Positions 748 to 14,676 of a stretch of DNA of 25,026 nt are shown here, piece by piece. Numbering within the stretch: the stretch's first letter is position 1; the number at the start of each line of letters is the position of its first letter. Under the pieces are notes generated by a model. The model was not told the DNA's origin, searched no databases, and worked only from the letters and a program-made list of their open reading frames with translations. Position numbers and translations under genes: made by a program. Source of the DNA: a virus; IMG/VR virus record IMGVR_UViG_3300037189_023131, positions 1 to 25,026 of that record. One strand, 5' to 3'.

Positions 748-762
748 GTTTCGTATATTAAA
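748..762 (+). promoter_or_regulatory. Early promoter-like motif copy 1
   Basis: GTTTCGTATATTAAA, full consensus. The core C is 30 nt before the ATG at 782 (long-leader class). Confidence 0.7.
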
Positions 763-781
763 ATAAATTAAAAAGAAAATT

Positions 782-988
782 ATGGCTGGAAGAAATTATG
801 GAACTATGTTCATGGGTTATTATTATGATGAAAGTTGGACTAATATTGGTTATGATATTTATATTGAAGGTGGAATTGCTTTTCACAATGTAGCATATCA
901 TTCAAAACGGCAACTCATAGTTCAACTTACTAGAGATGGACATAATAAAGATGAAATTAAAACTAGAAGAGTTAAATACTTAAAATAA
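782..988 (+). CDS. Hypothetical small protein
   Basis: The 68-residue product is rich in tyrosine and glycine in its first half (residues 5-30) and basic at its end (KTRRVKYLK). I do not recognise it. It starts at an AAATT-ATG after its own motif copy and stops just before the phosphoesterase ATG at 990. That gene lacks a motif of its own, so this gene probably leads a two-gene transcript. Confidence 0.7.
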   Translation: MAGRNYGTMFMGYYYDESWTNIGYDIYIEGGIAFHNVAYHSKRQLIVQLTRDGHNKDEIKTRRVKYLK

Positions 989-989
989 G

Positions 990-1514
990 ATGGCAATAGT
1001 ACGATTTATAGCAGACTTACATTTAGGTCATATTAACATGGCTTTACATCGGGGCTTCTCAACAGTAGAAGAACATGATGAATATATTATTGAAAAATAT
1101 AATAGTGTTGTTTCAAAACGAGACGTTACATATATTTTAGGTGATGTGACAATGGAGAAATCAGCTCCATACCCATTGCTTGATCGTTTAAATGGTATAA
1201 AACATGTTGTATTAGGTAATCATGACCGACGACAAGACGTTAAAAAATTACTTGAATATGTTGAAAGTGTAGCTGGTATGATACAATACAAAGGTGTTAT
1301 GTTAACACATTGTCCAATTCATCCAATGGAACTTGATTATCGTTTCAACTATAACATTCATGGTCACATCCATGACAAACAAGTAATGAGAGATGTTTAT
1401 CACCTTGGTACATACAAAATAACTCAATTAATAGATGAACGTTACATTTGTGTTTCATGTGAGCGGGTTGATTATACTCCAAAAACATTAGAGGAATTAG
1501 GTATTAAAAGATAA
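990..1514 (+). CDS. Calcineurin-like metallophosphoesterase
   Basis: The 174-residue protein carries the full metal-binding signature of the family in order: DLHLGH (D9, H11), GDVT (D52), GNHD (N77, H78), THCP (H107) and HGHIH (H124, H126). These residues bind two metal ions that hydrolyse phosphodiesters or phosphomonoesters. The compact single-domain length is usual for small phage and bacterial members, whose substrates are often unknown; nucleic acid, cyclic nucleotides or ADP-ribose-type compounds are all possible. The start follows the preceding stop by one base (TAAG-ATG), implying translational coupling. A motif copy and the ligase gene follow, so a nucleic-acid role is plausible but inferred. 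Confidence 0.92.
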   Translation: MAIVRFIADLHLGHINMALHRGFSTVEEHDEYIIEKYNSVVSKRDVTYILGDVTMEKSAPYPLLDRLNGIKHVVLGNHDRRQDVKKLLEYVESVAGMIQYKGVMLTHCPIHPMELDYRFNYNIHGHIHDKQVMRDVYHLGTYKITQLIDERYICVSCERVDYTPKTLEELGIKR

Positions 1515-1528
1515 TTTCATATATTAAA
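1514..1528 (+). promoter_or_regulatory. Early promoter-like motif copy 2
   Basis: ATTTCATATATTAAA, a CATATATT variant. It begins on the last base of the phosphoesterase stop codon, and the core C is 25 nt before the ligase ATG. Confidence 0.6.
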
Positions 1529-1542
1529 TAAAAATAAGAGTT

Positions 1543-2604
1543 ATGATATTTAAAACATTATATAAACGTTCCACAACAGGAAAAATCAGTGAATGGACAA
1601 TTGAAACTGAAACAAATAAATTCAGAACAATGTCAGGGTTCACTGATGGTCAAAAAGTTATATCTGAATGGACTGTATGTGATGCTAAATCATATTGTAC
1701 AGCAGAAGAACAAGCCATAAAACAAGCTAAAGCGTTACATAAAAAGAAAATGGATTTAGGAGCATTTGAAGACATCAATGACATTGATAAACCTATATTC
1801 TTCAAACCAATGTTGGCTCATGATTACAATGACTATAAAGACAAAATCAAATATCCAGTAGCAACTCAACCTAAATTAGATGGTGTAAGATGTATTATTG
1901 ATATTGATGGAATGAGAAGTCGCAACGGGAAAGAACTTATATCTGCCCCCCACATTCATGAAGCATTAAAACCACTATTTGAAAAATATCCTGATTTAGT
2001 ATTTGATGGTGAGTTGTATGCTCATAAGAGTGATGGGGTTGATTTTAATAAGATTATCTCGTGTGTTAGAAAAACAAAACCAACTCCGAATGATATAATT
2101 GAAAGCAAACAATACATCCAATATTGGATCTATGACTTGCCATCACATACAGGTCAATTCCATGAACGAAGTTTTGCTATAAATGATTTAGATTTACCTG
2201 GATGCTGTATTGTAGTTGATACAACTATTATACATAATGAAGAAGATTTAATGGATATGTATCGTGTTTATATGGCTGATGGGTATGAAGGTCAAATGGT
2301 TAGAGTGTTAAGTAGTGAGTATGAGAATAAGCGTTCAAAACACTTACTTAAACATAAATCATTCATGGATGATGAGTTTGAAATTAAAGGCGTAGTTGAA
2401 GGTAAAGGAAAACTAACAGGTAAAATAGGCAAACTAGTATTTGATGGATTTGATTCAGCAGTGAATGGAGACCATGAGTATTTAGAAATGTTATTTAAAC
2501 GAGGTGATTTAATAGGTAAAAAAGCAACTGTTAAATACTTTGAATTAACCACAGATGGCGTTCCACGATTCCCTAAAGTAATAGCAATAAGGGATTTTGA
2601 ATAA
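1543..2604 (+). CDS. ATP-dependent DNA ligase
   Basis: The 353-residue enzyme joins nicked DNA by way of an adenylated lysine. Nucleotidyltransferase motifs are visible in order: motif I KLDGVR (K111 is the expected AMP-acceptor lysine), motif III FDGEL (154-158), a conserved YWIYDLP stretch (194-200), motif IV DGYEGQMVR (246-254) and motif V around KHLLKHK (266-272). An OB-fold tail follows. The first 75 or so residues resemble a WGR-like beta domain found in front of some phage ligases. At 353 residues it is smaller than T4 gp30 and nearer to T7-type ligases. It serves phage replication and repair. Motif copies precede (1514) and follow (2613) it, so it is likely a single-gene transcript. 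Confidence 0.95.
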   Translation: MIFKTLYKRSTTGKISEWTIETETNKFRTMSGFTDGQKVISEWTVCDAKSYCTAEEQAIKQAKALHKKKMDLGAFEDINDIDKPIFFKPMLAHDYNDYKDKIKYPVATQPKLDGVRCIIDIDGMRSRNGKELISAPHIHEALKPLFEKYPDLVFDGELYAHKSDGVDFNKIISCVRKTKPTPNDIIESKQYIQYWIYDLPSHTGQFHERSFAINDLDLPGCCIVVDTTIIHNEEDLMDMYRVYMADGYEGQMVRVLSSEYENKRSKHLLKHKSFMDDEFEIKGVVEGKGKLTGKIGKLVFDGFDSAVNGDHEYLEMLFKRGDLIGKKATVKYFELTTDGVPRFPKVIAIRDFE

Positions 2605-2612
2605 TAAAATTA

Positions 2613-2627
2613 GTTTCGTATATTAAA
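2613..2627 (+). promoter_or_regulatory. Early promoter-like motif copy 3
   Basis: GTTTCGTATATTAAA, full consensus, 9 nt after the ligase stop. The core C is 30 nt before the ATG at 2647. Confidence 0.7.
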
Positions 2628-2646
2628 ATAAATTAAAAGTGATATA

Positions 2647-2868
2647 ATGAGTGATAAAAAAACAACAACAAGCGGAATTGGTATTGGAACAGTATTGTTT
2701 CTGATATTCTTAACCCTTAAATTAGCAGAAATAGGACCAGTAGCAAATTGGTCATGGTGGTGGGTAACAAGCCCGTTATGGATTCCATTAGCGTTAGTTA
2801 TAGCAATAGTAGCAATTGCGGCTATTGTAGCTGTAATTGTAGCTATAATCGCAGTCACACTAAAATAA
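2647..2868 (+). CDS. Two-helix membrane protein (Fragile-X-F-like)
   Basis: The 73-residue product has two hydrophobic stretches: about residues 11-29 and a long Ile/Val/Ala helix at about 46-71. They are joined by a tryptophan-rich loop (NWSWWWVTSPLWIP). This loop is typical of small phage proteins annotated as transmembrane Fragile-X-F proteins, whose role is unknown. Inner-membrane location is inferred from hydrophobicity. The start context is GATATA-ATG, not the usual TTATG. The stop lies one base before the next ATG, so the pair is coupled. Confidence 0.82.
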   Translation: MSDKKTTTSGIGIGTVLFLIFLTLKLAEIGPVANWSWWWVTSPLWIPLALVIAIVAIAAIVAVIVAIIAVTLK

Positions 2869-2869
2869 T

Positions 2870-3160
2870 ATGACTAAAAGAGATACATCATGGGACGACC
2901 CACAGTTATCAGATGGAGACATGCCTATTAAAAAAGAAAAGACTATGAAATTTAAAGAAGGGGACATTTTAGAATTCAAAGGAGCTGAAAACTATGAAGC
3001 CCAAGAAGGAGCAACAGCTGTATTTCAAGGATACTATGTTGGAGCCGGAGATGAAGAATATGTCAAAGTAGAATGGATCAGAGATGATCTATCAGGCAGT
3101 CAAGACAATGGTGGTTATTTTGAATATCAATTTGAAAAAATAAAGGAAGAGGTTCTCTAA
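2870..3160 (+). CDS. Small SH3-like phage protein
   Basis: The 96-residue reading frame has a core FKEGDILEFKG, GATAVFQGYY, YVKVEWIRDD, then GGYFEYQFEKI. This beta-strand pattern fits a small SH3-like barrel and resembles a recurrent phage family of unknown function. The frame can start at 2870, coupled to the membrane-protein stop. An internal ATG at 2945 would begin exactly at the conserved MKFKEGDI core and is a reasonable alternative. No catalytic motif is seen. Confidence 0.75.
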   Translation: MTKRDTSWDDPQLSDGDMPIKKEKTMKFKEGDILEFKGAENYEAQEGATAVFQGYYVGAGDEEYVKVEWIRDDLSGSQDNGGYFEYQFEKIKEEVL

Positions 3161-3165
3161 AAATA

Positions 3166-3180
3166 GTTTCGTATATTAAA
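3166..3180 (+). promoter_or_regulatory. Early promoter-like motif copy 4
   Basis: GTTTCGTATATTAAA, full consensus, 6 nt after the previous stop. The core C is 26 nt before ATG 3196 (short-leader class). Confidence 0.7.
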
Positions 3181-3527: not shown

Positions 3528-3905
3528 ATGAGTGGAGGAACATTTGATTACAACCAACGACGTATTAGAGAAATAGCTGACCGTGTTGAACATGAAATAG
3601 CTTTAAGTGGAGCGCCTAAAACAGAACGTGAATTAAAAGAAGAATCATGGCGTAATGATGATTGGTATAAAAAATATCCTGAAGATTTAAACCATTACAC
3701 ACTCCCAGATGAGGTTATGACTGAGTTCAAAAGAGGCTATGAAATACTCCGCAAAGCAGAAATATATGCTCAACGTATGGATTGGTTGTTAGCCGGTGAT
3801 GATGGGAATGAATCATTTTTAGAACGTCTAAAAGAGGAACTAGATATTTTAGATTTTGAACTTTCAGTGAAAAGATTTACAAGGGAAGAAGATGATGAAG
3901 ATTAG
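3528..3905 (+). CDS. Conserved MSGGTFDY-type phage protein
   Basis: The 125-residue product begins MSGGTFDYNQRRIREIADRV and contains RGYEILRKAEIYAQRMDWLL followed by AGDDGNESFLERLKEEL. This layout (glycine-rich start, long helix, aromatic YAQRMDWL segment, acidic tail) belongs to a widespread family of small phage proteins of unknown function. It follows its neighbour by 5 nt with AAATT-ATG. The C-terminus is strongly acidic (EEDDED). The TAG stop overlaps the first base of the next motif copy, an unusually tight junction. Confidence 0.82.
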   Translation: MSGGTFDYNQRRIREIADRVEHEIALSGAPKTERELKEESWRNDDWYKKYPEDLNHYTLPDEVMTEFKRGYEILRKAEIYAQRMDWLLAGDDGNESFLERLKEELDILDFELSVKRFTREEDDED

Positions 3906-3919
3906 TTTCGTATATTAAA
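3905..3919 (+). promoter_or_regulatory. Early promoter-like motif copy 5
   Basis: GTTTCGTATATTAAA. Its first G is the last base of the upstream TAG stop, so any -35 element would lie in coding sequence. The core C is 24 nt before ATG 3933. Confidence 0.7.
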
Positions 3920-4226: not shown

Positions 4227-4252
4227 TTAAGGGAATAAAATTCATAAGATTG

Positions 4253-4267
4253 ATTTCGTATATTTAA
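4253..4267 (+). promoter_or_regulatory. Early promoter-like motif copy 6
   Basis: ATTTCGTATATTTAA. The core C is 23 nt before ATG 4280. Confidence 0.68.
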
Positions 4268-4279: not shown

Positions 4280-4606
4280 ATGAAGAAAAACACAGTAACA
4301 TCAACATTCCATCATGAAATTGAATGTGGTGAGGAGTATCTAGAAATAGAATTTGATTGTGAACTACATCCTGAAAATGATGGTATTGGTTCATATGAAT
4401 TTTGGGGTTCATCTTATTATGATGCTGGTACTAATTATTTAGTCTTAGATGAATTGAAATGGGATAAAACACAATTCACAGATAAACAGAATGATATAAT
4501 AGAAAAACATATAGATAACAACTGGGCAACATTAGAAGAAATCATTACACAAGAGTTGTATGATGAATATAATGGTTATGAGTATGATGAGGATGAAGAT
4601 TATTAA
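4280..4606 (+). CDS. Hypothetical acidic protein
   Basis: The 108-residue product opens with alternating beta strands (STFHHEIECGEEYLEIEFDC), has a tyrosine-rich turn (SSYYDAGTNYLVLDEL), then a helix and a tyrosine/aspartate/glutamate tail ending DEDEDY. It loosely resembles small beta-rich phage proteins of unknown function. It is flanked by motif copies on both sides and starts at AAGTT-ATG. Confidence 0.75.
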   Translation: MKKNTVTSTFHHEIECGEEYLEIEFDCELHPENDGIGSYEFWGSSYYDAGTNYLVLDELKWDKTQFTDKQNDIIEKHIDNNWATLEEIITQELYDEYNGYEYDEDEDY

Positions 4607-4611
4607 AATAG

Positions 4612-4626
4612 GTTTCGTATATTAAA
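4612..4626 (+). promoter_or_regulatory. Early promoter-like motif copy 7
   Basis: GTTTCGTATATTAAA, full consensus, 5 nt after a stop. The core C is 25 nt before ATG 4641. Confidence 0.7.
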
Positions 4627-4640: not shown

Positions 4641-4856
4641 ATGAAAAAGTACAACATTCAACTAGAAAGTGTTAGAGCGACACTAACAGGAAAAATTAAA
4701 GGGTTCGAGAATGGTATTAAAAATACTATGGAGAATGAGTCTATCTCTACTGAAATGAAAAACCGTTCTATTCATACAATTGAGTTTGCTCTAAGGGAGT
4801 TAAAAGAAGTCCTTGCCCAATTAGAATATTTTGATGAAAAGGATGAAGAAGCTTAA
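4641..4856 (+). CDS. Hypothetical helical protein
   Basis: The 71-residue product is almost entirely helix-forming: LESVRATLTGKIKGFENGIK, then IHTIEFALRELKEVLAQLEY, with an acidic tail. A helical hairpin is likely. It starts at AGGTT-ATG after a motif copy. I do not recognise it. Confidence 0.72.
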   Translation: MKKYNIQLESVRATLTGKIKGFENGIKNTMENESISTEMKNRSIHTIEFALRELKEVLAQLEYFDEKDEEA

Positions 4857-4861
4857 AATAA

Positions 4862-4876
4862 ATTTCGTATATTAAA
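4862..4876 (+). promoter_or_regulatory. Early promoter-like motif copy 8
   Basis: ATTTCGTATATTAAA. The core C is 32 nt before ATG 4898; the leader carries the extra AATTA block of the long class. Confidence 0.68.
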
Positions 4877-5134: not shown

Positions 5135-5157
5135 GAGGAATATTTTTAACAAAGTAA

Positions 5158-5172
5158 ATTACGTATATTCAA
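5158..5172 (+). promoter_or_regulatory. Early promoter-like motif copy 9
   Basis: ATTACGTATATTCAA, the first copy with A in place of the third T. The core C is 33 nt before ATG 5195. Confidence 0.66.
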
Positions 5173-5605: not shown

Positions 5606-5627
5606 ATAAAATAAAGTTTAATAAAGG

Positions 5628-5649
5628 AAGGCTCTCATTAGAGAGCCTT
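5628..5649 (+). terminator. Hairpin terminator fused to next promoter-like motif
   Basis: A 9-bp stem AAGGCTCTC / GAGAGCCTT closes a 4-base ATTA loop. The following T-run is also the TTT of the next motif copy (5647-5661), so terminator and motif share bases. Confidence 0.82.
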
Positions 5650-5661
5650 TCGTATATTCAA
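5647..5661 (+). promoter_or_regulatory. Early promoter-like motif copy 10
   Basis: CTTTCGTATATTCAA, whose first three bases lie in the terminator's right arm. The core C is 22 nt before ATG 5673. Confidence 0.68.
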
Positions 5662-5672: not shown

Positions 5673-5900
5673 ATGGAAAAAAGAGACAGAGAACAATTGC
5701 TATATGAGGCAATGGAACAATTAAACACAGCGATTAGAAACATTGAAACAGCGTTGAGAGGAACATCAATGAAAGGACATGCTGACGCTTATATTATAGG
5801 ACATCTACGCAGCTGGGTTGATGCTGAGGGTACTTACAATATGGGTATTCAACAGTACATTGATAGGTTAGATGAAGAGGATGATGGAGATGAAGATTAG
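5673..5900 (+). CDS. Hypothetical small acidic protein
   Basis: The 75-residue product has a helical N-terminal half (REQLLYEAMEQLNTAIRNIE), a short glycine/histidine-bearing middle and an aspartate/glutamate tail (DEEDDGDED). I do not recognise it. The TAG stop overlaps the next motif copy. The junction from 5889 to 5914 is identical over 26 nt to 3894-3919, at the end of the MSGGTFDY-type gene. Confidence 0.74.
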   Translation: MEKRDREQLLYEAMEQLNTAIRNIETALRGTSMKGHADAYIIGHLRSWVDAEGTYNMGIQQYIDRLDEEDDGDED

Positions 5901-5914
5901 TTTCGTATATTAAA
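5900..5914 (+). promoter_or_regulatory. Early promoter-like motif copy 11
   Basis: GTTTCGTATATTAAA, overlapping the upstream TAG stop by one base as at 3905. The core C is 33 nt before ATG 5937. Confidence 0.7.
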
Positions 5915-6275: not shown

Positions 6276-6460
6276 CAACAGAACAATCAATAGAGCAGAT
6301 TCAAAAGCGAATTGAGTTTCTTCAAACAGACAAAACAGTATGGACCATGGCTTGGGAAGGAAGCACTTACAACCATGGCCCATACTTAAGACGATTAGAA
6401 GTTAAACGTTTAAAAGCCAAATTAAAACGGCTACATAAAAAATTAGTTAAGAAGGGATAG
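6269..6460 (+). CDS. Hypothetical basic helical protein
   Basis: The 63-residue protein is strongly basic in its second half (RRLEVKRLKAKLKRLHKKLV) with a heptad-like coiled-coil pattern. This contrasts with the mostly acidic neighbours. The helical N-terminus is followed by a tryptophan-bearing loop (TVWTMAWEGSTYNHGPY). It overlaps the preceding gene by 7 nt and has no motif of its own. A nucleic-acid-binding helix is possible but unproven. Confidence 0.7.
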   Translation: MVTTEQSIEQIQKRIEFLQTDKTVWTMAWEGSTYNHGPYLRRLEVKRLKAKLKRLHKKLVKKG

Positions 6461-6475
6461 CCATCAATAAAATTT

Positions 6476-6490
6476 GTTTCGTATATTCAA
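6476..6490 (+). promoter_or_regulatory. Early promoter-like motif copy 12
   Basis: GTTTCGTATATTCAA. The core C is 23 nt before ATG 6503. Confidence 0.69.
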
Positions 6491-6502: not shown

Positions 6503-6967
6503 ATGAAAAGTATTAAATCGGCAGACCACATTATTGGCTATAACGAGAGTGCGATAGCCAAAGGTGAACGTAACGATTGTGTAGTTAGAGCAGTTGCATC
6601 AACGTTTGGATTGAAGTATGATGTTGCTCATAAGTTTGTAGCGAATGAATTTGGACGGGAACCACGAAAGGGCACATTTGGAACCACATTGAAACTAAGA
6701 GCTAGAGATAACATATTAGGAGTCAAATACAAATTAGTACATAAAGAAAACCTATTATACCCCGGATCAGATATACACCAGAAAAAAGGTGGTGAGCCAG
6801 TTAATGTACCGTTACGTTTATTTCTAGAACGGTTTCCTAAAGGAAGATATTTAATAATAGTTAAGGGACATGCATTTTCAATTATTGATGGAGTTGTAGT
6901 AGGAAATGATAATGATGGTAACCGACTCAAAGCAAAGGTATTATTTGCCATTAAAGTAGAGGATTAA
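6503..6967 (+). CDS. Papain/C39-like cysteine-peptidase-fold protein
   Basis: The 154-residue protein has NDCVVRAVAS with C26 at the start of a helix and, later, KGHAFSIIDGVVVGN with H123 and a following D129 or N135. A Cys at a helix N-terminus followed by a His on a strand and then Asp/Asn is the layout of papain-like and C39-like peptidases. Small phage proteins of this pattern exist but are poorly studied. It could be a peptidase, deubiquitinase-like enzyme, transferase or inactive relative. It is a single-gene unit with AGGTT-ATG and a motif copy on each side. Catalysis is inferred, not shown. Confidence 0.72.
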   Translation: MKSIKSADHIIGYNESAIAKGERNDCVVRAVASTFGLKYDVAHKFVANEFGREPRKGTFGTTLKLRARDNILGVKYKLVHKENLLYPGSDIHQKKGGEPVNVPLRLFLERFPKGRYLIIVKGHAFSIIDGVVVGNDNDGNRLKAKVLFAIKVED

Positions 6968-6981
6968 AATAATTAAAATAA

Positions 6982-6996
6982 GTTTCGTATATTAAA
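6982..6996 (+). promoter_or_regulatory. Early promoter-like motif copy 13
   Basis: GTTTCGTATATTAAA. The core C is 25 nt before ATG 7011. Confidence 0.7.
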
Positions 6997-7010: not shown

Positions 7011-7226
7011 ATGGAAGTTTTAACACGCTCAGAGAACACAGTTGTAGAACGCCTAATCAAAATTCAACACCCAACAGAAGGGGTTATGATCTATGTTGAA
7101 TTAGTTGATGGGGATAGTAAAAAAGTACTTGATTATTCACTACGAAGTAAAGATGGACACCATATTGATGAACCAGAACTGGTAGCTGAAGTATTAGAAT
7201 TTATTGATAAAGTAATTGGGGAATAA
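7011..7226 (+). CDS. Hypothetical small acidic protein
   Basis: The 71-residue product has alternating strands (VVERLIKIQHPTEGVMIYVE) then a helix (EPELVAEVLEFIDKVIGE). I do not recognise it. The start is AAGTT-ATG. The unit holds this gene alone, between motif copies 13 and 14. Confidence 0.72.
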   Translation: MEVLTRSENTVVERLIKIQHPTEGVMIYVELVDGDSKKVLDYSLRSKDGHHIDEPELVAEVLEFIDKVIGE

Positions 7227-7240
7227 ACTTAGTAAAATTT

Positions 7241-7255
7241 GTTACATATATTAAA
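7241..7255 (+). promoter_or_regulatory. Early promoter-like motif copy 14
   Basis: GTTACATATATTAAA, a CATATATT variant. The core C is 27 nt before ATG 7272. Confidence 0.62.
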
Positions 7256-7568: not shown

Positions 7569-7590
7569 AGGAATAAAAGATTAAAAATAA

Positions 7591-7846: not shown

Positions 7847-7861
7847 GAGATATAAAATAAA

Positions 7862-7875
7862 GAACGTATATTAAA
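7862..7875 (+). promoter_or_regulatory. Early promoter-like motif copy 16
   Basis: GAACGTATATTAAA, diverged in its first bases. The core C is 22 nt before ATG 7887. Confidence 0.6.
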
Positions 7876-8178: not shown

Positions 8179-8218
8179 TTAGTACCATAAAAAGAGGGGA
8201 ATAAAAAATATAAATTTA

Positions 8219-8233
8219 GTTTCATATATTCAA
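8219..8233 (+). promoter_or_regulatory. Early promoter-like motif copy 17
   Basis: GTTTCATATATTCAA, a CATATATT variant. The core C is 22 nt before ATG 8245. Confidence 0.62.
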
Positions 8234-8424: not shown

Positions 8425-8625
8425 ATGAAAAGATATATAATTGAGGAACAAGTACCTGCTATGGTCACTTACACTTATGAAATAATTGCTAAGGATGAAG
8501 AAACAGCAATGGAAATGATCATGAACCGGGAAGCAGATTCATGTGAGACAACTACAGAAACGATTTATGAGAGTTCTGTAACAATAGAATTTACAAGACA
8601 AACCATAAAGGAAGAAGAGATATAA
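8425..8625 (+). CDS. Hypothetical small protein
   Basis: The 66-residue product has a strand-helix-strand pattern: VTYTYEIIAKDEETAMEMIM, then TTTETIYESSVTIEFTRQT. This beta-alpha-beta layout is common in very small phage proteins where a YEV-type strand is followed by an EEA helix, but no role is known. It starts at AAATT-ATG 12 nt after the previous stop without a motif between, so the two form an operon. Confidence 0.72.
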   Translation: MKRYIIEEQVPAMVTYTYEIIAKDEETAMEMIMNREADSCETTTETIYESSVTIEFTRQTIKEEEI

Positions 8626-8631
8626 AAGAGA

Positions 8632-8645
8632 GAACGTATATTTCA
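8632..8645 (+). promoter_or_regulatory. Early promoter-like motif copy 18
   Basis: GAACGTATATTTCA, diverged on both flanks. The core C is 35 nt before ATG 8670. Confidence 0.58.
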
Positions 8646-8901: not shown

Positions 8902-8931
8902 GATTATAGAGGAGTAAAATAATAAAAATCA

Positions 8932-8946
8932 CTTACGTATATTAAA
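8932..8946 (+). promoter_or_regulatory. Early promoter-like motif copy 19
   Basis: CTTACGTATATTAAA. The core C is 21 nt before ATG 8957, the shortest spacing seen. Confidence 0.66.
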
Positions 8947-9446: not shown

Positions 9447-9474
9447 TTAAAAGGGACTAAAAATTATTAAAATT

Positions 9475-9489
9475 GTTTCGTATATTTAT
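9475..9489 (+). promoter_or_regulatory. Early promoter-like motif copy 20
   Basis: GTTTCGTATATTTAT. The core C is 25 nt before ATG 9504. Confidence 0.66.
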
Positions 9490-9503: not shown

Positions 9504-9656
9504 ATGAAAAAGGAGACAATTAAAATGAACATAGGAGCCACAAGGGAATCACAGAAACAACAGGGGTACTTTGATGGAAGATTTGTTGCGAGGGCGATGG
9601 AATCAAAAAAGAAATACACCCGTAAAGATAAACATAAGGGGATAAGCTTAGATTAA
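9504..9656 (+). CDS. Hypothetical 50-aa basic protein
   Basis: The product begins MKKETIKMNIGATRESQKQQ and has a lysine/arginine-rich end (ESKKKYTRKDKHKG). It is one of few clearly basic proteins here. The start is AAGAA-ATG; a second ATG at 9525 (MNIGATRES) lies downstream. Its position between two motif copies supports it being real. Nucleic-acid binding is possible from charge alone. Confidence 0.6.
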   Translation: MKKETIKMNIGATRESQKQQGYFDGRFVARAMESKKKYTRKDKHKGISLD

Positions 9657-9660
9657 AAGA

Positions 9661-9675
9661 GTTACGTATATTAAA
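9661..9675 (+). promoter_or_regulatory. Early promoter-like motif copy 21
   Basis: GTTACGTATATTAAA, 4 nt after a stop. The core C is 23 nt before ATG 9688. Most copies from here on carry TTAC in place of TTTC. Confidence 0.7.
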
Positions 9676-9687: not shown

Positions 9688-9999
9688 ATGAAAGTATTAA
9701 AAGAAAATGAATTAAAAGGGAAGACATCAGGGTCTGGATTTAAAGGATACATTAACTGTACCTACCAGGACCTAGTTAGGGTACTAGGGGAACCAACACA
9801 CCCAGAAGCATCAGGAGATGATAAGGTTCAGAAGGAATGGATTGTAGAGTATAATGGAGAGATATTTACAGTTTATGATTGGAAGACTTATGATGAGGAA
9901 TACACCATGAATGAATTGGATGAGTTCCATATAGGAGGAAAAACAGATGCCTATGATTTTTTCCTAGAATTAAAAGAAATGATAGATAGTGAGGAATAA
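9688..9999 (+). CDS. Conserved small phage protein, function unknown
   Basis: The 103-residue product has GYINCTYQDLVRVLGEPTHP, then QKEWIVEYNGEIFTVYDWKT and a C-terminal EFHIGGKTDAYDFFLELKE. This order (strand, a helix with LGEP, W-x-V/L strands, the WKT turn and H-I-G-G) matches a widespread small phage family whose function is not known to me. It starts at AGGTT-ATG as a single-gene unit. Confidence 0.82.
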   Translation: MKVLKENELKGKTSGSGFKGYINCTYQDLVRVLGEPTHPEASGDDKVQKEWIVEYNGEIFTVYDWKTYDEEYTMNELDEFHIGGKTDAYDFFLELKEMIDSEE

Positions 10000-10013
10000 A
10001 ATTATTAGAAATT

Positions 10014-10028
10014 GTTACGTATATTTCA
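10014..10028 (+). promoter_or_regulatory. Early promoter-like motif copy 22
   Basis: GTTACGTATATTTCA. The core C is 35 nt before ATG 10053. Confidence 0.66.
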
Positions 10029-10052: not shown

Positions 10053-10247
10053 ATGACAGTAAAGGAGTTAATTAAAAAATTAGAAAAGGTTAAGGACAAA
10101 GATCTAGAAGTGATTGTTCAAGGAACCGACCCAACAAATTATATTTACTATAATGATGTTGAGTACATAGGAACTGAAAAAGTATACCTGAGTGAAGATG
10201 ATAATAAAAAGACTAAAGTATTTATTATTGACGGGGGAATGTTTTAA
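10053..10247 (+). CDS. Conserved small phage protein (GTDPT/IDGGMF type)
   Basis: The 64-residue product starts MTVKELIKKLEKVKDKDLEV, then VQGTDPTNYIYYNDVEYI, and ends VFIIDGGMF. This N-terminal helix, GTDPT turn and terminal GG-x-F are characteristic of a common small phage and prophage family of unknown function. It has AGGTT-ATG behind motif copy 22. Confidence 0.83.
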   Translation: MTVKELIKKLEKVKDKDLEVIVQGTDPTNYIYYNDVEYIGTEKVYLSEDDNKKTKVFIIDGGMF

Positions 10248-10256
10248 GTTAAATTT

Positions 10257-10271
10257 GTTACGTATATTTAA
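10257..10271 (+). promoter_or_regulatory. Early promoter-like motif copy 23
   Basis: GTTACGTATATTTAA. The core C is 33 nt before ATG 10294. Confidence 0.68.
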
Positions 10272-10293: not shown

Positions 10294-10614
10294 ATGAAAA
10301 AAGTAGAGATTATTGAAGTAAAACAATTGGGACGCCCAGTTAATCCTGAAAGTGTAAGACAATTAAGACTAAAGGAATTAGAAGAAAGAAGAAAGAATGG
10401 GGAGATTAAAAAAGGAAGACCCATTAAAGAAGATAGTGTTAGACAGGTAAGGCTAAAAGAATTAGAAGAGAAGAGAAGTAATGGGGAGTTAAAGAAAGGA
10501 AGACCTGTTAATGGAGAGAGTAAAAGACAGATGAGGTTGAAGGAAATAGAAGAAAGAAAATTAAATGGAACTTTTAAGTTAGGGAGACCAAAAATGATTA
10601 AAAGTGAAGAATAA
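10294..10614 (+). CDS. Repeat protein with AT-hook-like GRP cores (paralogue A)
   Basis: The 106-residue protein consists of a 12-residue lead and three exact-length 28-residue repeats plus a partial fourth. GRP is at residues 13, 41, 69 and 97. Each repeat reads GRP-x4-S-x-RQ-x-RLKE(L/I)EE, then R/K-x-NG. GRP flanked by lysines is the core of AT-hooks, which bind the minor groove of AT-rich DNA; the rest of each unit is a basic/acidic helix. A role in coating or bending DNA is inferred. It is paralogous to the 12550 gene but uses AGA/AGG for 13 of 14 arginines. A hairpin terminator follows, making a complete transcription unit. Confidence 0.85.
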   Translation: MKKVEIIEVKQLGRPVNPESVRQLRLKELEERRKNGEIKKGRPIKEDSVRQVRLKELEEKRSNGELKKGRPVNGESKRQMRLKEIEERKLNGTFKLGRPKMIKSEE

Positions 10615-10623: not shown

Positions 10624-10647
10624 AATAGGGGTGTAAAAGCCCCTATT
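10624..10647 (+). terminator. Rho-independent-type terminator
   Basis: An 8-bp stem AATAGGGG / CCCCTATT with the loop TGTAAAAG is followed by TT. It ends 3 nt before motif copy 24. Its loop resembles that of the 11946 terminator. Confidence 0.82.
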
Positions 10648-10650
10648 TTA

Positions 10651-10665
10651 ATTACATATATTTAA
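10651..10665 (+). promoter_or_regulatory. Early promoter-like motif copy 24
   Basis: ATTACATATATTTAA, a CATATATT variant directly after a terminator. The core C is 24 nt before ATG 10679. Confidence 0.6.
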
Positions 10666-10825: not shown

Positions 10826-10846
10826 GGAGTAAAATCATTAGAAATA

Positions 10847-10861
10847 GTTACGTATATTAAA
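10847..10861 (+). promoter_or_regulatory. Early promoter-like motif copy 25
   Basis: GTTACGTATATTAAA. The core C is 24 nt before ATG 10875. Confidence 0.7.
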
Positions 10862-11135: not shown

Positions 11136-11154
11136 GGGGAATAAGACCCCCTAA
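11132..11154 (+). terminator. Hairpin terminator overlapping the stop codon
   Basis: An 8-bp stem TTAGGGGG / CCCCCTAA with a 7-base loop is followed by TTT. The left arm contains the TAG stop of the upstream gene. Motif copy 26 begins 5 nt later. Confidence 0.8.
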
Positions 11155-11158
11155 TTTA

Positions 11159-11173
11159 GTTACATATATTTAA
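11159..11173 (+). promoter_or_regulatory. Early promoter-like motif copy 26
   Basis: GTTACATATATTTAA. The core C is 32 nt before ATG 11195. Confidence 0.62.
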
Positions 11174-11194: not shown

Positions 11195-11425
11195 ATGAAG
11201 ATCAAAATTAAAAGCGTATTGGAAGAGGTGGCACCACAAGTATTCCAGATTAGAGATTTGAATGAGGCAAAAGGAGTAATTCTAAGTTTTATTGAAACTA
11301 AAAATATTAAGGACACAGACAAGAAAATAATTGTTGATAATGTGTCCCAATTCAAAAATATAAATGCCGTACATAGGTATATTGCAAATAGTTTATTGAA
11401 ATATGAGGGGCTAGGAATAAAATAG
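11195..11425 (+). CDS. Conserved small phage protein (NSLLKYEGLG type)
   Basis: The 76-residue helical product ends with KIIVDNVSQFKNINAVHRYI and NSLLKYEGLGIK. This C-terminal stretch (a hydrophobic helix, then N-x-LLKYEG-L/M-G) matches a small family common in phage genomes, with no function known to me. It starts at AAGTT-ATG. Its end overlaps a GGGGCTA/TAGCCCC hairpin. Confidence 0.8.
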   Translation: MKIKIKSVLEEVAPQVFQIRDLNEAKGVILSFIETKNIKDTDKKIIVDNVSQFKNINAVHRYIANSLLKYEGLGIK

Positions 11426-11429
11426 CCCC
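11407..11429 (+). terminator. Hairpin over stop codon, no T-run
   Basis: A 7-bp stem GGGGCTA / TAGCCCC closes a 9-base loop. The right arm begins with the TAG stop. The downstream bases AACAAATT are not a T-run, so termination is less certain; a role in mRNA 3'-end protection is possible. Confidence 0.6.
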
Positions 11430-11434
11430 AACAA

Positions 11435-11449
11435 ATTACGTATATTAAG
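11435..11449 (+). promoter_or_regulatory. Early promoter-like motif copy 27
   Basis: ATTACGTATATTAAG, 6 nt after a hairpin. The core C is 33 nt before ATG 11472. Confidence 0.66.
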
Positions 11450-11660: not shown

Positions 11661-11683
11661 CAGGAACATAATTATTTAATTTT

Positions 11684-11698
11684 ATTACTTATATTTAT
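11684..11698 (+). promoter_or_regulatory. Early promoter-like motif copy 28
   Basis: ATTACTTATATTTAT, first of three consecutive CTTATATT variants. The core C is 32 nt before ATG 11720. Confidence 0.58.
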
Positions 11699-11941: not shown

Positions 11942-11945
11942 TTAG

Positions 11946-11970
11946 TGGGGGTGTAAGAGCCCCCATTTTT
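11946..11970 (+). terminator. Strong rho-independent-type terminator
   Basis: A 6-bp stem TGGGGG / CCCCCA with the loop TGTAAGAG is followed by TTTTT (11966-11970). Motif copy 29 starts at the very next base. Confidence 0.88.
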
Positions 11971-11985
11971 GTTACTTATATTTAT
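11971..11985 (+). promoter_or_regulatory. Early promoter-like motif copy 29
   Basis: GTTACTTATATTTAT, abutting the terminator T-run. The core C is 32 nt before ATG 12007. Confidence 0.6.
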
Positions 11986-12006: not shown

Positions 12007-12198
12007 ATGAAGTATTTAGTGATTGATTATTGTTTAAATTTTAGTTTTATTAGTAATAGTAAGGAAGAATTGATTGAGAGTTTAGGTTATGAGGTGGGTG
12101 AGATTGAGTTTGAAGAATTGTGTGATAGGGATAAAAATGAGTATGAGATTATTGAAGTTAAAGATGTTAATGGGTTAAAATGGTTAAGTAAGGAGTAA
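12007..12198 (+). CDS. Hypothetical acidic protein
   Basis: The 63-residue product starts MKYLVIDYCLNFSFISNSKE with a helix LIESLGYEVGEIEFEEL, then EYEIIEVKDVNGLKWL. The strand-helix-strand order is suggestive of a small alpha/beta fold. The start is AAGTT-ATG and the DNA very AT-rich. I do not recognise it. Confidence 0.68.
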   Translation: MKYLVIDYCLNFSFISNSKEELIESLGYEVGEIEFEELCDRDKNEYEIIEVKDVNGLKWLSKE

Positions 12199-12212
12199 AT
12201 GAATTAAAGTAA

Positions 12213-12227
12213 ATTACTTATATTTAA
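12213..12227 (+). promoter_or_regulatory. Early promoter-like motif copy 30
   Basis: ATTACTTATATTTAA. The core C is 32 nt before ATG 12249. Confidence 0.58.
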
Positions 12228-12248: not shown

Positions 12249-12317
12249 ATGGAGAATTTTGATGGACTAATTAGCTGGGAAAAGATTGAATGGTACTCTG
12301 AATATAATGAGGAGTAA
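12249..12317 (+). CDS. Possible 22-aa peptide gene
   Basis: A 22-codon frame (MENFDGLISWEKIEWYSEYN, then EE) fills the unit between motif copies 30 and 31 and has the canonical AGGTT-ATG start. Context rather than length supports it. It is acidic with two tryptophans; no function can be proposed. Confidence 0.5.
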   Translation: MENFDGLISWEKIEWYSEYNEE

Positions 12318-12331
12318 GTTTAGTTAGATTG

Positions 12332-12346
12332 GTTACGTATATTAAA
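12332..12346 (+). promoter_or_regulatory. Early promoter-like motif copy 31
   Basis: GTTACGTATATTAAA. The core C is 23 nt before ATG 12359. Confidence 0.7.
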
Positions 12347-12358: not shown

Positions 12359-12499
12359 ATGAAAAATTGGATTGAAACATTAGTATTAGGAGCAATGGGA
12401 ACCATTGCGGTAGTAGGATTAGTAACGGTAGTAGCATCTATGATTATTGGTGAGATGGATTACAACCAATTTAATTACATCAGTTTAAGTGGGGAGTAA
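12359..12499 (+). CDS. Small membrane protein (46 aa)
   Basis: The product has one hydrophobic helix at about residues 7-30 (TLVLGAMGTIAVVGLVTVVA) and a polar C-terminal tail (GEMDYNQFNYISLSGE). It starts at AGGTT-ATG behind a motif copy. One-helix proteins of this size can affect the host envelope or block superinfection, but nothing here is specific. Confidence 0.62.
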   Translation: MKNWIETLVLGAMGTIAVVGLVTVVASMIIGEMDYNQFNYISLSGE

Positions 12500-12513
12500 G
12501 TTAAGTTAAATCA

Positions 12514-12528
12514 GTTACGTATATTAAA
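12514..12528 (+). promoter_or_regulatory. Early promoter-like motif copy 32
   Basis: GTTACGTATATTAAA. The core C is 32 nt before ATG 12550. Confidence 0.7.
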
Positions 12529-12549: not shown

Positions 12550-12972
12550 ATGAAAAGAAATGAATTAGTAGCAACAGCGATTGCAGCAGGAATTAAAGGA
12601 GCTCATACAATGAAGAGCGTAGTATTGGAAGAGATGTTGGCAAACATGGCCAAGCCAGAGACAACAGGGAAACGAGGCCGACCAGTTAAGGCAGATAGTG
12701 CCCGCCAAATACGAATTGCCGAGTTGGCTGAGAAACGAGCGAATGGTGAGTTGAAAAAGGGTCGACCAATTAAGGCAGACAGTGCCCGCCAAATGCGGTT
12801 AGTGGAGTTAGAGACGAAACGAGCAAATGGTGAGTTGAAAAAAGGTCGCCCGGTGAATGGGGAAAGTGCGCGCCAGAAACGATTGGCGGAAATGGAAGCC
12901 AAGAAAGCCGCTAATGGTGGTGTGATGCCACTTGGAAGACCAAAAGTAGTAATTAACGACACCGCTTCATAA
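12550..12972 (+). CDS. SAP/Rho_N-like head plus AT-hook-like GRP repeats (paralogue B)
   Basis: In this 140-residue protein, residues 3-30 (RNELVATAIAAGIKGAHTMK and onward) resemble the short helix-turn-helix of SAP or Rho N-terminal domains, which bind nucleic acid. GRP follows at residues 43, 71, 99 and 129, heading repeats of 28, 28 and 30 residues: GRP-x-(K/N)-x-(D/E)SARQ-x-R(L/I)-x-E, then RANGELKK. The best AT-hook match is KRGRPVK at 41-47. It is a paralogue of the 10294 protein with an extra head. Arginine is CGN in 12 of 14 codons, against 1 of 14 in the paralogue. DNA binding is inferred. A hairpin terminator follows 27 nt after the stop. Confidence 0.85.
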   Translation: MKRNELVATAIAAGIKGAHTMKSVVLEEMLANMAKPETTGKRGRPVKADSARQIRIAELAEKRANGELKKGRPIKADSARQMRLVELETKRANGELKKGRPVNGESARQKRLAEMEAKKAANGGVMPLGRPKVVINDTAS

Positions 12973-13027: not shown

Positions 13028-13186
13028 ATGAGAACGCAAACATTTTTACAGAAACACGGAGCCGACATTTTGAGTATGGATGGCAATTTAGACCAAGCGG
13101 TGATAACGTTACGACTTGAAGACGGACGACTAGCGTTTTATTGGTTCGATGAGGGAGAGTATATTAAACACGTTATAAAGGAGTAA
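13028..13186 (+). CDS. Hypothetical 52-aa protein without its own promoter motif
   Basis: The product begins MRTQTFLQKHGADILSMDGN, then VITLRLEDGRLAFYWFDEGE and YIKHVIKE. The strand-turn-strand middle looks like a genuine small beta fold. The start (GGTAC-ATG) lacks the usual TT. The gene lies directly behind a terminator and ahead of motif copy 33, an unusual position. Codon use is CpG-rich like its neighbours. Confidence 0.6.
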   Translation: MRTQTFLQKHGADILSMDGNLDQAVITLRLEDGRLAFYWFDEGEYIKHVIKE

Positions 13187-13200
13187 TAACACCAAACATT

Positions 13201-13215
13201 GTTACGTATATTAAA
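13201..13215 (+). promoter_or_regulatory. Early promoter-like motif copy 33
   Basis: GTTACGTATATTAAA. The core C is 32 nt before ATG 13237. Confidence 0.7.
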
Positions 13216-13319: not shown

Positions 13320-13625
13320 ATGACAGCAAGAGAGTTTATGGACGCGTGTAACACGTTTACACAATTCGGAAAAATTAAAGACATCGATTTCGAAATGGAG
13401 TTATGGTGTGATCGACTTGACAAAGTGGGTAAATTGGAGTTGCGAGGTTTCGATTTCGAAAACGGAACAGTAGTGTTAGGTGAGTATATTGATTTCGGAT
13501 GTGATTGTTGTGGTGGGTATTATGAAGACCAGACATACGATTTAGATGACTTAGCTCGTAATGGCTACCTAGGAGACCTAATCGACATGTTAGATGACAT
13601 ATTGAGAGCAAAGACGGGAGTATAA
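13320..13625 (+). CDS. Hypothetical protein with CDCC cysteine cluster
   Basis: The 101-residue protein starts MTAREFMDACNTFTQFGKIK, then has beta strands (DFEMELWCDRLDKVGKLELR), a cysteine cluster GCDCCGG (about residues 60-66) and a C-terminal helix (GYLGDLIDMLDDILRAKTG). I prefer the AGGTT-ATG at 13320 over the in-frame TTG at 13311, which lies inside the preceding ORF and lacks the standard context. The cysteines could bind metal. It is likely co-transcribed with the membrane mini-ORF. Confidence 0.74.
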   Translation: MTAREFMDACNTFTQFGKIKDIDFEMELWCDRLDKVGKLELRGFDFENGTVVLGEYIDFGCDCCGGYYEDQTYDLDDLARNGYLGDLIDMLDDILRAKTGV

Positions 13626-13637
13626 GTCGCAAATGAC

Positions 13638-13652
13638 ATTACGTATATTTCA
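13638..13652 (+). promoter_or_regulatory. Early promoter-like motif copy 34
   Basis: ATTACGTATATTTCA. The core C is 31 nt before ATG 13673. Confidence 0.66.
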
Positions 13653-13672: not shown

Positions 13673-13807
13673 ATGAGAACATTTGGTATTACAGTAGGAG
13701 TATTTGGAACGATATTATTGGCGTTCGGGAACGATTGGGGTTTAATCGGATTGGTTCCGTTGTTGATATTACAGTTTGAAGAGTTAGCTAAGGACACTAA
13801 TGACTAA
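13673..13807 (+). CDS. Small membrane protein (44 aa)
   Basis: The product has two short hydrophobic stretches (FGITVGVFGTILLAFG and WGLIGLVPLLILQF) and an acidic end (EELAKDTND). It may form a helical hairpin in the membrane. It starts at CGGTT-ATG behind motif copy 34 as a single-gene unit. Confidence 0.62.
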   Translation: MRTFGITVGVFGTILLAFGNDWGLIGLVPLLILQFEELAKDTND

Positions 13808-13812
13808 AGACA

Positions 13813-13827
13813 GTTACGTATATTAAA
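13813..13827 (+). promoter_or_regulatory. Early promoter-like motif copy 35
   Basis: GTTACGTATATTAAA, 5 nt after a stop. The core C is 31 nt before ATG 13848. Confidence 0.7.
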
Positions 13828-13847: not shown

Positions 13848-14060
13848 ATGGAAAGAAAAGTTTTTACAGTAGTGGACGGAATGAGAATCCAAGCAGAACA
13901 GTTGTCAGGGTGGAAGAAAATATTGATACCTGAAGTGTACACCGCGTTAGAAGAGTATGCGAAACGTGATAACGACAAGGCGGAAACAGGGTATGACATT
14001 TGCCGCGGAACAAGTTTAGATAGTTACATTGGCAATTATATGTTGGGATACAGACTCTGA
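13848..14060 (+). CDS. Hypothetical small protein
   Basis: The 70-residue product begins MERKVFTVVDGMRIQAEQLS, contains LIPEVYTALEEYAKRD and ends with CRGTSLDSYIGNYMLGYRL. No family is recognised. It starts at CGGTT-ATG and is CpG-rich like its neighbours. Confidence 0.7.
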   Translation: MERKVFTVVDGMRIQAEQLSGWKKILIPEVYTALEEYAKRDNDKAETGYDICRGTSLDSYIGNYMLGYRL

Positions 14061-14066
14061 AATTGA

Positions 14067-14081
14067 ATTACGTATATTAAA
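14067..14081 (+). promoter_or_regulatory. Early promoter-like motif copy 36
   Basis: ATTACGTATATTAAA. The core C is 32 nt before ATG 14103. Confidence 0.68.
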
Positions 14082-14102
14082 GTATAATTAAAAATAGCGG
14101 TT

Positions 14103-14327
14103 ATGAAAAATTTGAAAAAACTTGATGGTGTAGATGTGAACGTAATGGATCAGTTCATCGCAGTAATGGATTTCTTGAAGGCGATGGGTTACGACACAAG
14201 TAAGTTAAGCGTGATGGACGCTGCGTATTTGAAAAGTGACATAGTTAGAGCGATTGAGAACTGTGAAGACCCGTATGCGGAATACATGACAACCAAAAAC
14301 AATGATGACCAAGTGACGAGATGGTAG
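14103..14327 (+). CDS. Hypothetical helical protein, last gene of early array
   Basis: The 74-residue product is helical (MDQFIAVMDFLKAMGYDTSK, then LKSDIVRAIENCEDPYAEYM). No family is recognised. It starts at CGGTT-ATG. It is closed by a strong hairpin (14347-14366), after which gene packing stops for about 375 bp. Confidence 0.7.
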   Translation: MKNLKKLDGVDVNVMDQFIAVMDFLKAMGYDTSKLSVMDAAYLKSDIVRAIENCEDPYAEYMTTKNNDDQVTRW

Positions 14328-14346
14328 TTTAGCGCTTCTAATAAAG

Positions 14347-14366
14347 GTGGGTCCGCAAGGACCCAC
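14347..14366 (+). terminator. Strong hairpin terminator with GCAA loop
   Basis: An 8-bp G/C-rich stem GTGGGTCC / GGACCCAC closes the stable tetraloop GCAA, 19 nt after the last early-array stop. The following T-run is short (TTCC). Confidence 0.82.
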
Positions 14367-14428
14367 TTCCGTAGTCTCACCGCATACGGTATATGGTACA
14401 TATATGGTACGTACTAGGTATGTATATC

Positions 14429-14458
14429 CCCCGTACGCGTTACGGTCAATGTACGGGG
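14429..14458. repeat. Inverted repeat CCCCGTAC/GTACGGGG
   Basis: Perfect 8-bp arms with a 14-base spacer lie within the GTAC cluster. There is no T-run, so it is more likely a protein-binding or structural site than a terminator. Confidence 0.6.
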
Positions 14459-14637
14459 TATGGGTATACGGGAAGGAATGTGATGGATTTATAGAGCGAA
14501 AACAACTTTTACCCATCGATAAATATATAATTATATACCACCCAAAGAATATACCCCATGATTCCAAAATTGCAAAAATGGATAAAACCCAAAAACCCAC
14601 AAAAAGAGATCTTTAAAAAAATTTCACCTTTTGACCA

Positions 14638-14655
14638 AGTATATTTGTATATACT
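14638..14655. promoter_or_regulatory. Dyad AGTATAT/ATATACT, possible operator
   Basis: A 7-bp dyad with a TTGT spacer ends 6 nt before motif copy 37. A repressor or activator binding site is a guess from position. Confidence 0.4.
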
Positions 14656-14661
14656 AAATTA

Positions 14662-14676
14662 GTTTCATATATTCAA
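14662..14676 (+). promoter_or_regulatory. Early promoter-like motif copy 37 (last)
   Basis: GTTTCATATATTCAA. The core C is 39 nt before ATG 14705, the longest spacing. Confidence 0.58.

Follow-up and report, generated by a model that had tools for sequence, protein, structure and literature searches.

The IMG/VR virus record IMGVR_UViG_3300037189_023131 (positions 1 to 25,026; this whole 25,026-nucleotide stretch is called the window below) is a fragment of a T4-like myovirus, with baseplate wedge PHROGs among its proteins and Flavobacterium phage immuto as its best named match. On its plus strand, 37 sites in front of genes share a promoter-like core, and almost all of them also carry an upstream GGA box at a fixed distance, giving the two-part motif RGGA-N22-C(G/A/T)TATATT. 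We consider it likely from the sequence comparisons that these sites are per-gene, presumably early, promoters read by the host RNA polymerase, in which GGA has replaced the TTG of a Bacteroidota-type promoter.

A two-part motif in front of small genes

Coordinates are given relative to the core C, set as 0, with negative offsets upstream. The core C[GAT]TATATT occurs 44 times on the plus strand of the window and three times on the minus strand, compared with a both-strand chance level of 9.2 on average and 16 at the highest in 100 shuffles. Thirty-seven of the 44 plus-strand cores precede genes (28 CG, 6 CA and 3 CT), with 21-39 nt from the core C to the first ATG. The seven other plus-strand matches, classed as in-gene from sequence context and open reading frames (ORFs), and the three minus-strand matches were excluded from the array set. 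An earlier reading of the window's letters (the original prediction) had listed the same number of gene-preceding sites, the same split and the same distances, and our recount and a position weight matrix return exactly these 37. Built from the 37 sites and spanning -27 to +19, the matrix gives them leave-one-out scores of 14.7-48.8 bits; no further window position reaches 8 bits on either strand, and no match of 8 bits occurs in 20 random sequences (one strand). The motif does begin inside a stop codon at 3905 and 5900, as the original prediction had reported.

At 35 of the 37 sites, an ORF of at least 35 amino acids (aa) starts 15-45 nt downstream; the remaining two (12217 and 13205) face ORFs of 22 and 25 aa. 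The stretch from core to ATG is A-rich, with GTT ahead of the ATG in 29 of 37 sites. Since the distance to the ATG varies from 21 to 39 nt, the core does not belong to a ribosome site.

The original prediction found no shared -35 box, which proved wrong, as GG stands at -25 in 36 of the 37 sites and GGA in 34. By column, G is present at -25 and at -24 in 36 sites each and A at -23 in 35. None of the 37 sites has GGA at any other offset from -30 to -20, and GG at -24, -23, -22, -21 and -20 occurs in 0, 0, 0, 1 and 0 sites; GG at -26 (17 sites) and -27 (9 sites) reflects longer G runs with the same end point. The bipartite pattern has 38 matches in the window, all on the plus strand (36 array sites and two in-gene), versus 0.34 expected. 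Its sole exception in the array is site 14666, with TTG at -21 instead.

The box overlaps the preceding ORF in 23 of the 37 sites (frame 2 in 17, frame 0 in five, frame 1 in one), and the spacing is rigid in 36 of 37, whether the box is coding or non-coding. A coding artefact was rejected as the source of the box: GG persists where the preceding gene ended further upstream, and the overlaps are spread over three frames. Weaker T-A-A/G positions at -21, -12 and -6 share the frame of the 17 overlapping sites, and the cassette, as we call the two boxes with their spacer, may therefore also give stop codons to the preceding gene.

The original prediction had offered a conserved RNA leader, and an RNA-processing signal can be added, in place of a promoter. 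The region between core and ATG is indeed conserved in type, being A-rich with its GTT, but a conserved element also sits 25 nt ahead of the core, often within the preceding gene, and this disfavours such a signal. The TTG/GGA swap described below takes place at promoter-like spacing, and strong hairpins are found at just 4 of 36 sites; we therefore regard an RNA signal as very improbable. The separate promoter for almost every gene, also proposed there, has good support in the rigid two-part motif, the TTG/GGA swap and the presence of another motif elsewhere in the genomes; the fixed upstream box removes the description "minimal".

Terminator-like hairpins between the boxes, with a minimum free energy (MFE) <= -5, occur at 4 of 36 window sites (these 36 include the in-gene match 1129) compared with 39 of 673 control 27-mers. 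In two relatives, G013 and G011 (such handles denote records and loci of our comparison set), they occur at 9 of 36 and 9 of 28 sites. The 37 sites of the array are as follows.

727..759, plus strand, GGA-type cassette, core C 752
1493..1525, plus strand, GGA-type cassette, left junction of ligase module, core C 1518
2592..2624, plus strand, GGA-type cassette, right junction of ligase module, immuto homologue of gene has TTG, core C 2617
3145..3177, plus strand, GGA-type cassette, core C 3170
3884..3916, plus strand, GGA-type cassette, core C 3909
4232..4264, plus strand, GGA-type cassette, core C 4257
4591..4623, plus strand, GGA-type cassette, core C 4616
4841..4873, plus strand, GGA-type cassette, core C 4866
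5137..5169, plus strand, GGA-type cassette, immuto homologue of gene has TTG, core C 5162
5626..5658, plus strand, GGA-type cassette, terminator-like hairpin between boxes, core C 5651
5879..5911, plus strand, GGA-type cassette, core C 5904
6455..6487, plus strand, GGA-type cassette, core C 6480
6961..6993, plus strand, GGA-type cassette, core C 6986
7220..7252, plus strand, GGA-type cassette, core C 7245
7570..7602, plus strand, GGA-type cassette, core C 7595
7840..7872, plus strand, GGA-type cassette, core C 7865
8198..8230, plus strand, GGA-type cassette, core C 8223
8610..8642, plus strand, GGA-type cassette, core C 8635
8911..8943, plus strand, GGA-type cassette, core C 8936
9454..9486, plus strand, GGA-type cassette, core C 9479
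9640..9672, plus strand, GGA-type cassette, immuto homologue of gene has TTG, core C 9665
9993..10025, plus strand, GGA-type cassette, core C 10018
10236..10268, plus strand, GGA-type cassette, core C 10261
10630..10662, plus strand, GG-type cassette (GGT), hairpin, core C 10655
10826..10858, plus strand, GGA-type cassette, core C 10851
11138..11170, plus strand, GGA-type cassette, hairpin, core C 11163
11414..11446, plus strand, GGA-type cassette, core C 11439
11663..11695, plus strand, GGA-type cassette, core C 11688
11950..11982, plus strand, GG-type cassette (GGT), hairpin, core C 11975
12192..12224, plus strand, GGA-type cassette ahead of 22-aa ORF (12249-12317), core C 12217
12311..12343, plus strand, GGA-type cassette, core C 12336
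12493..12525, plus strand, GGA-type cassette, core C 12518
13180..13212, plus strand, GGA-type cassette ahead of 25-aa ORF (13237-13314), core C 13205
13617..13649, plus strand, GGA-type cassette, core C 13642
13792..13824, plus strand, GGA-type cassette, core C 13817
14046..14078, plus strand, GGA-type cassette, core C 14071
14645..14673, plus strand, single TTG-type array site with TTG at -21, similar layout at L063 2211 and L009 2570, core C 14666

The two very short ORFs are both pointed to by cassettes; the 25-aa product is hydrophobic and has a 28-aa counterpart in L063. Distances from core to ATG cluster at 21-27 and at 30-39 nt, the longer mostly with an extra AAATT or TATAATT-like stretch. 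The base directly 5' of the core changes along the array from T (16 sites) to A (21 sites; Mann-Whitney p 5e-5), perhaps through local homogenisation by recombination, and is nearly always T in nine tabulated relatives. An imperfect palindrome, GTATATTTGTATATAC, spans the TTG of site 14666 (14639-14654), with similar ones in L063 and L009, and is a possible operator at the early/late border.

Exchange of TTG for GGA among the relatives

The immuto baseplate wedge protein is 46% identical to that of the window, the best of 35 matching records. The 160-kb immuto genome, in which gp20- and gp23-type proteins are annotated, has the same order as the window: a small-gene block, a phosphohydrolase and baseplate genes. 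Contigs of metagenome-assembled genomes (MAGs) called Flavobacteriaceae and Flavobacteriales hold two distant relatives (57 and 56%), and the host of the window phage probably belongs to the Flavobacteriales or is a Flavobacteria-type bacterium.

In immuto, TTG stands at -21 in 30 of 35 cores (27 of 32 by a stricter rule), GG at -25 in none, and TATATT is followed by TA in 18 of 27 sites. The 16 GGA-type records have GGA at -25 in 259 of 294 distinct CGTATATT sites (the next offset, 17) and TTG at -21 in 32. This pooled count leaves out the near-duplicate G023 (99.98% identical to G009) and two identical-context sites, and takes in mixed or thin records: G022 (2 GGA and 3 TTG of 6 sites), G024 (8 and 5 of 13), G025 (7 and 4 of 11) and G002 (one site). 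Five TTG-lineage records have TTG at -21 in 41 of 63 sites and GGA at -25 in one (in G014). In a five-protein tree, the 16 GGA-side records (G002 and the near-duplicates G020 and G023 included) make up a single group that is nested in TTG relatives, with branch support of 1.000 versus seven others. Of these seven, G004 offers too few sites for a class and G006 is TTG, though weakly; the tree left out G022, G024 and G025, which lack the proteins, and L343, which has two of them. In a pattern scan of viral contigs, 57 of 80 locus/strand rows, among the matches listed, had a single match and fewer than three GG sites and were chance-like.

The Bacteroidota sigma-A promoter is described as TAHHTTTG, nearly invariant from T-12 to G-5, with a weak -33 element TTTG (PMC6847099, in part), and three of the six F. 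psychrophilum sigma motifs SM1-6, namely SM1-3, are described as TAnnTTTG variants (PMC9723704, in part). The sister lineages and site 14666 share the TTG-N20-TA layout, and TATATT matches the start of the -7 box. In contrast, 36 of the 37 window sites are without TTG at -21 and all 37 without the final G: T follows at +8 in 11 of 37 and G at +9 in 0 of 37, and a -33-type TTG about 20 nt 5' of the -7 box is present at one (14666). The full form is found in a distant relative, phage Mel-JY01 (PP395634.1), where the 90 of 190 kb examined contain five TTG-N20-CGTATATTTG sites with a full TAnnTTTG, and all five TTG-type sites in L345 include the final G (TATATTTG). Before TAHHTTTG, this phage has TTG at -21 in 13 of 133 sites, and the other 17 offsets tested give 0-8. 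With these sites and the TTG/TATATT sites of immuto, the promoter is therefore traceable from the host consensus to the GGA/TATATT clade. The resemblance of TATATT to the start of TAnnTTTG, pointed out in the original prediction, thus holds as ancestry and not for the present sites, none of which keeps the final G. Mel-JY01 is labelled as infecting Microcystis elabens, yet it has the Bacteroidota-type TTG-N20-TATATTTG and relatives of Flavobacterium phage proteins (L345), and the host label may be wrong.

The same genes can carry different boxes. For five gene families, the immuto site is of the TTG type and the GGA-clade site has GG (window 5162, 2617 and 9665; G013 6605; G021 43374), and a few GGA-clade genes retain TTG. 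The DUF932 family, with 11 sites, has six TTG (one of them immuto), two with both boxes and three GG; in G003, G021 and G024, each with two copies, GG goes with the copy of 248-253 aa and TTG or both boxes with that of 267-269 aa. With sites carrying both boxes excluded from every ortholog-pair count and the near-duplicates G020 and G023 removed, mixed pairs number 21 versus a shuffled mean of 56.5 (minimum 24 of 2000), and TTG-TTG pairs 14 versus 3.3 (maximum 11; 0 of 2000 reach 14). Ten of these 14 come from one family, DUF932 (about 267-269 aa). The TTG-TTG count was also 14 versus 3.3 before near-duplicate removal, and 17 versus 3.9 with three in-gene matches that were then dropped.

The persistence of TTG bears on whether GGA is simply a -35 element read by the primary sigma of the clade's different hosts, with no phage factor, which we hold to be possible though doubtful. 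There was one clade-wide switch, as a host change would give, the -10 core is retained, and sigma region 4 was found in one of 23 phage records (G010, ECF-type). On the other hand, TTG sites are still present beside GGA sites in these genomes and go with the gene, as the deficit of mixed pairs indicates. In two Flavobacteriales MAGs, which may not be GGA-clade hosts, GGA-N22-CGTATATT gives two matches versus two in the backward control; TTG-N20-TAHHTTTG gives 48 and 52 versus 35 and 29, a modest excess.

Cassette junctions and a late-type motif

Several junctions of homology fall in cassettes. The ligase gene is 86.5% identical between the window and G001 over 1517-2627, that is, from one core to 10 nt beyond the next, and the 80-100 nt flanking this module show no clear similarity between the two. 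The gene 5' of core 1518 matches G013 (89%) up to the same cassette. The module encodes an ATP-dependent DNA ligase-like protein (1543-2604) with 92% aa identity to G001 versus 72% for the baseplate protein, and so was recently exchanged. G008 and G020 share 21.8 kb at 99.97% identity, and this stretch begins 13 nt 5' of a core, in the spacer that separates the core from its GGA box (G008 2612, G020 1049, oriented; L334-L335, L483), while the preceding 200 nt are unrelated (29% identical); this junction is a recent recombination or a chimaeric assembly. Two G001-matching blocks of G021 join at a single cassette, their ends lying 26 and 12 nt past the core; at this point G001 is longer by 680 nt, the span of its gene 13285-13965, by gene gain or loss. 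Block ends lie near cores at 0.46 versus 0.23 by circular shift (4 of 1000), an excess partly confounded by the faster change of non-coding DNA. Since the records are metagenome contigs, chimaeric assembly at repeats is possible. For the site-bearing genes of eight records, the family is absent in 1121 of 1589 family-genome comparisons, and shared neighbouring gene pairs are still adjacent in 58 of 180.

PeSL cassettes of T4-type phages have reportedly been treated in Arbiol 2010 and Comeau 2014. These promoter-terminator cassettes are described as early promoters repeated between small variable T4-type genes, sometimes with stem-loops, forming seams for shuffling (PMC4503421, in part). The window likewise repeats a promoter between small, variable genes of a T4-like myovirus (37 sites), and it and its relatives have gene-exchange junctions in cassettes. 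Unlike PeSL, the cassettes here have a Bacteroidota-type promoter ancestry and a GGA box, and the hairpin is found in a minority of window sites, between the two boxes. To our knowledge, the GGA box has no counterpart in PeSL cassettes. The module and genome junctions and the high turnover of families would also suit an array that is a recombination seam only, with a GGA box of no role in transcription. We find this scarcely credible: the inter-box sequence is free and the spacing fixed, which homology alone does not need, and the TTG lineages retain a host-like promoter layout.

Upstream regions outside the array are enriched in a different word, TATTTATA, with A or C ahead of it in immuto and G005, and no upstream box was found at its sites. 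The stretches 10-60 nt ahead of gene starts make up 5-7% of the seven genomes counted, yet they hold 23 of the 30 immuto copies of the word, 27 of the 41 in G005 and 20 of the 37 in G001; on the reverse strand, the word falls there in 6 of 15, 3 of 18 and 5 of 11 copies, respectively. In 10-kb bins, the array motif and TATTTATA are mostly apart in G001 and G021 and overlap more in immuto and G019. Support for the late motif comes from the relatives, because MTATTTATA is not enriched in the window itself (7 versus 4.0 expected; 13 of 100 shuffles). The window features concerned are listed here.

17403..18098, plus strand, sigma-region-2-like (gp55-like) protein, weak candidate late sigma factor
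18115..18122, plus strand, late-type motif TATTTATA, 20 nt 5' of ATG 18135
21317..21324, plus strand, late-type motif TATTTATA, 13 nt 5' of ATG 21330
23929..23936, plus strand, late-type motif TATTTATA, 13 nt 5' of ATG 23942, gene probably runs off window

In 14 of 16 records (not immuto and G013), the family of the 17403-18098 protein matches sigma region 2 weakly, below the cut-off; all 11 of these 14 that were checked lie in its orthologue. The window protein alone has no Pfam sigma match, and a sequence search of the family against the PDB gave no matches. Its structural model is of medium confidence (mean predicted local distance difference test score, pLDDT, 73.5; predicted template modelling score, pTM, 0.45). 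Foldseek with this model returned sigma factor or initiation complex titles in 24 of the top 25 matches, none with E below 0.001; the match to the SigE N-terminal domain (8b3z_C) has TMt 0.74 over 66 columns and E 4.4. We take the protein to be a probable gp55-type late sigma. The T4 late promoter reads TATAAATA, and gp55 is the T4 late sigma. TATAAAT is the form given for this promoter in PMC3037559 (in part). As in T4, TATTTATA is a single AT-rich box with no -35, found in the structural block among other places, with a sigma-region-2-like protein near its sites; it differs in that the motif reads TATTTATA and the protein's sigma likeness is weak. Near the start of the late block, the 14958-15443 protein matches endonuclease and homing-endonuclease families.

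Candidate readers of the GGA box

On the reading we favour, each site would be the promoter of one gene or short gene pair, with two boxes a fixed distance apart: RGGA, with its last base at -23, and C(G)TATATT, which occupies 0 to +7. A-rich sequence follows up to the ATG. When the core is aligned with the host -7 element (T-12), transcription is predicted to start about 14 nt after the core C, with a leader of about 7-25 nt. The promoter would descend from the Bacteroidota form TTG-N20-TAnnTTTG, GGA taking the place of TTG and the end of the -7 box being lost, and the host RNA polymerase would be its likely reader. The cassettes would double as seams for gene exchange between phages, and in some of them a terminator-like hairpin separates the boxes. 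That the sites act as promoters, where transcription starts, that they work early and that the host polymerase is used are what we infer from these sequence patterns.

The host RNA polymerase is favoured because no multisubunit phage polymerase was found (Rpb2_6 or Rpb1_2 in 0 of 10 records, several of them fragments; controls 14 of 14) and sigma region 4 was detected in one of the 23 records scanned (G010), a set without the window and G008. In G010, an extracytoplasmic function (ECF)-type sigma factor with regions 2 and 4 over cut-off is encoded inside the GGA array (11142-11630; L304, L308). ECF promoters have a spacer of 16-17 nt. An ECF sigma promoter (GGAAC/CGT) was rejected for the array, whose spacer would measure 20 nt on that reading; 1 of 23 records has the sigma gene. 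A phage RNA polymerase, or a phage sigma fully replacing the host's, seems improbable to us. The rigid spacing is like that of single-enzyme promoters, and phiKZ early promoters contain TATATT; the domain scans speak against it, as does the gp55-like family, which is common to the TTG lineages too.

Among T4 early and middle promoters, the middle ones have a MotA box that replaces the -35 while the host -10 is kept (PMC2988021, in part). The window similarly keeps a host-type downstream box and has its upstream box replaced, at another distance, and some genes here also retain a host-type -35. The box sequence, its position and the hosts differ, and no MotA/AsiA family was found among 20 proteins scanned. 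We tentatively place first, as reader of GGA, a phage-made or phage-borne adaptor acting beside the host sigma in the manner of MotA/AsiA; otherwise the reader would be the host sigma or a host factor alone. More speculatively, the box may be bound by an adaptor, phage-made or virion-borne, that redirects the unusual primary sigma of Bacteroidota and that arose once in this clade, independently of MotA/AsiA. Three window proteins are of interest here.

10294..10614, plus strand, 106-aa GRP (AT-hook-like) repeat protein, candidate DNA-binding factor
12550..12972, plus strand, 140-aa paralogue of GRP-repeat protein
16106..16303, plus strand, 65-aa protein, second candidate associated with the GGA clade

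The two paralogues have repeats of about 26 aa starting with GRP and no convincing Pfam or PHROG match. Of the 16 GGA-type records, 12 encode multi-GRP repeat proteins, as does 1 of 6 others (11 of 14 GGA-type without the near-duplicates G020 and G023). The 55-65 aa protein is present in 13 of 16 and 1 of 6 (again 11 of 14), and the single other record is G002, inside the GGA clade by the tree. From these distributions, which are correlations within one clade, both are first adaptor candidates. The GRP-repeat link may reflect sampling: these genes are located close to the end of the array, and three of the records without them, G022, G024 and G025, match none of the five late proteins used for the tree.

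Several points weigh against per-gene early promoters with an adaptor-read GGA box. The nearly invariant G of the F. johnsoniae -7 box is missing (0 of 37). "Early" timing is inferred from gene content, gene size and position. Strong hairpins are few in the window (4 of 36, versus 39 of 673 control 27-mers). The search for known activators found none, with neither MotA nor AsiA families in 10 window and 10 G001 proteins (G001 by Pfam only). On the minus strand, too, the late motif is placed before genes somewhat more often than expected in most records (0-58% of copies). Finally, the conservation of TTG or GGA per gene could be inheritance alone; box class kept by the gene is not proof of two regulatory classes, because common descent could give the same.

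We found no description of such phage promoters among the open-access PMC papers listed, and transcription takeover by Bacteroidota phages seems little studied. The clade offers a natural experiment, in which the same promoter core has had its -35-type box replaced clade-wide (259 of 294 sites) with a few old-box sites beside, and the cultured immuto/Flavobacterium pair provides a TTG control for a direct test of what reads GGA. If the adaptor reading is true, these phages would have a sigma-appropriation system driving some 25-35 promoters per genome.

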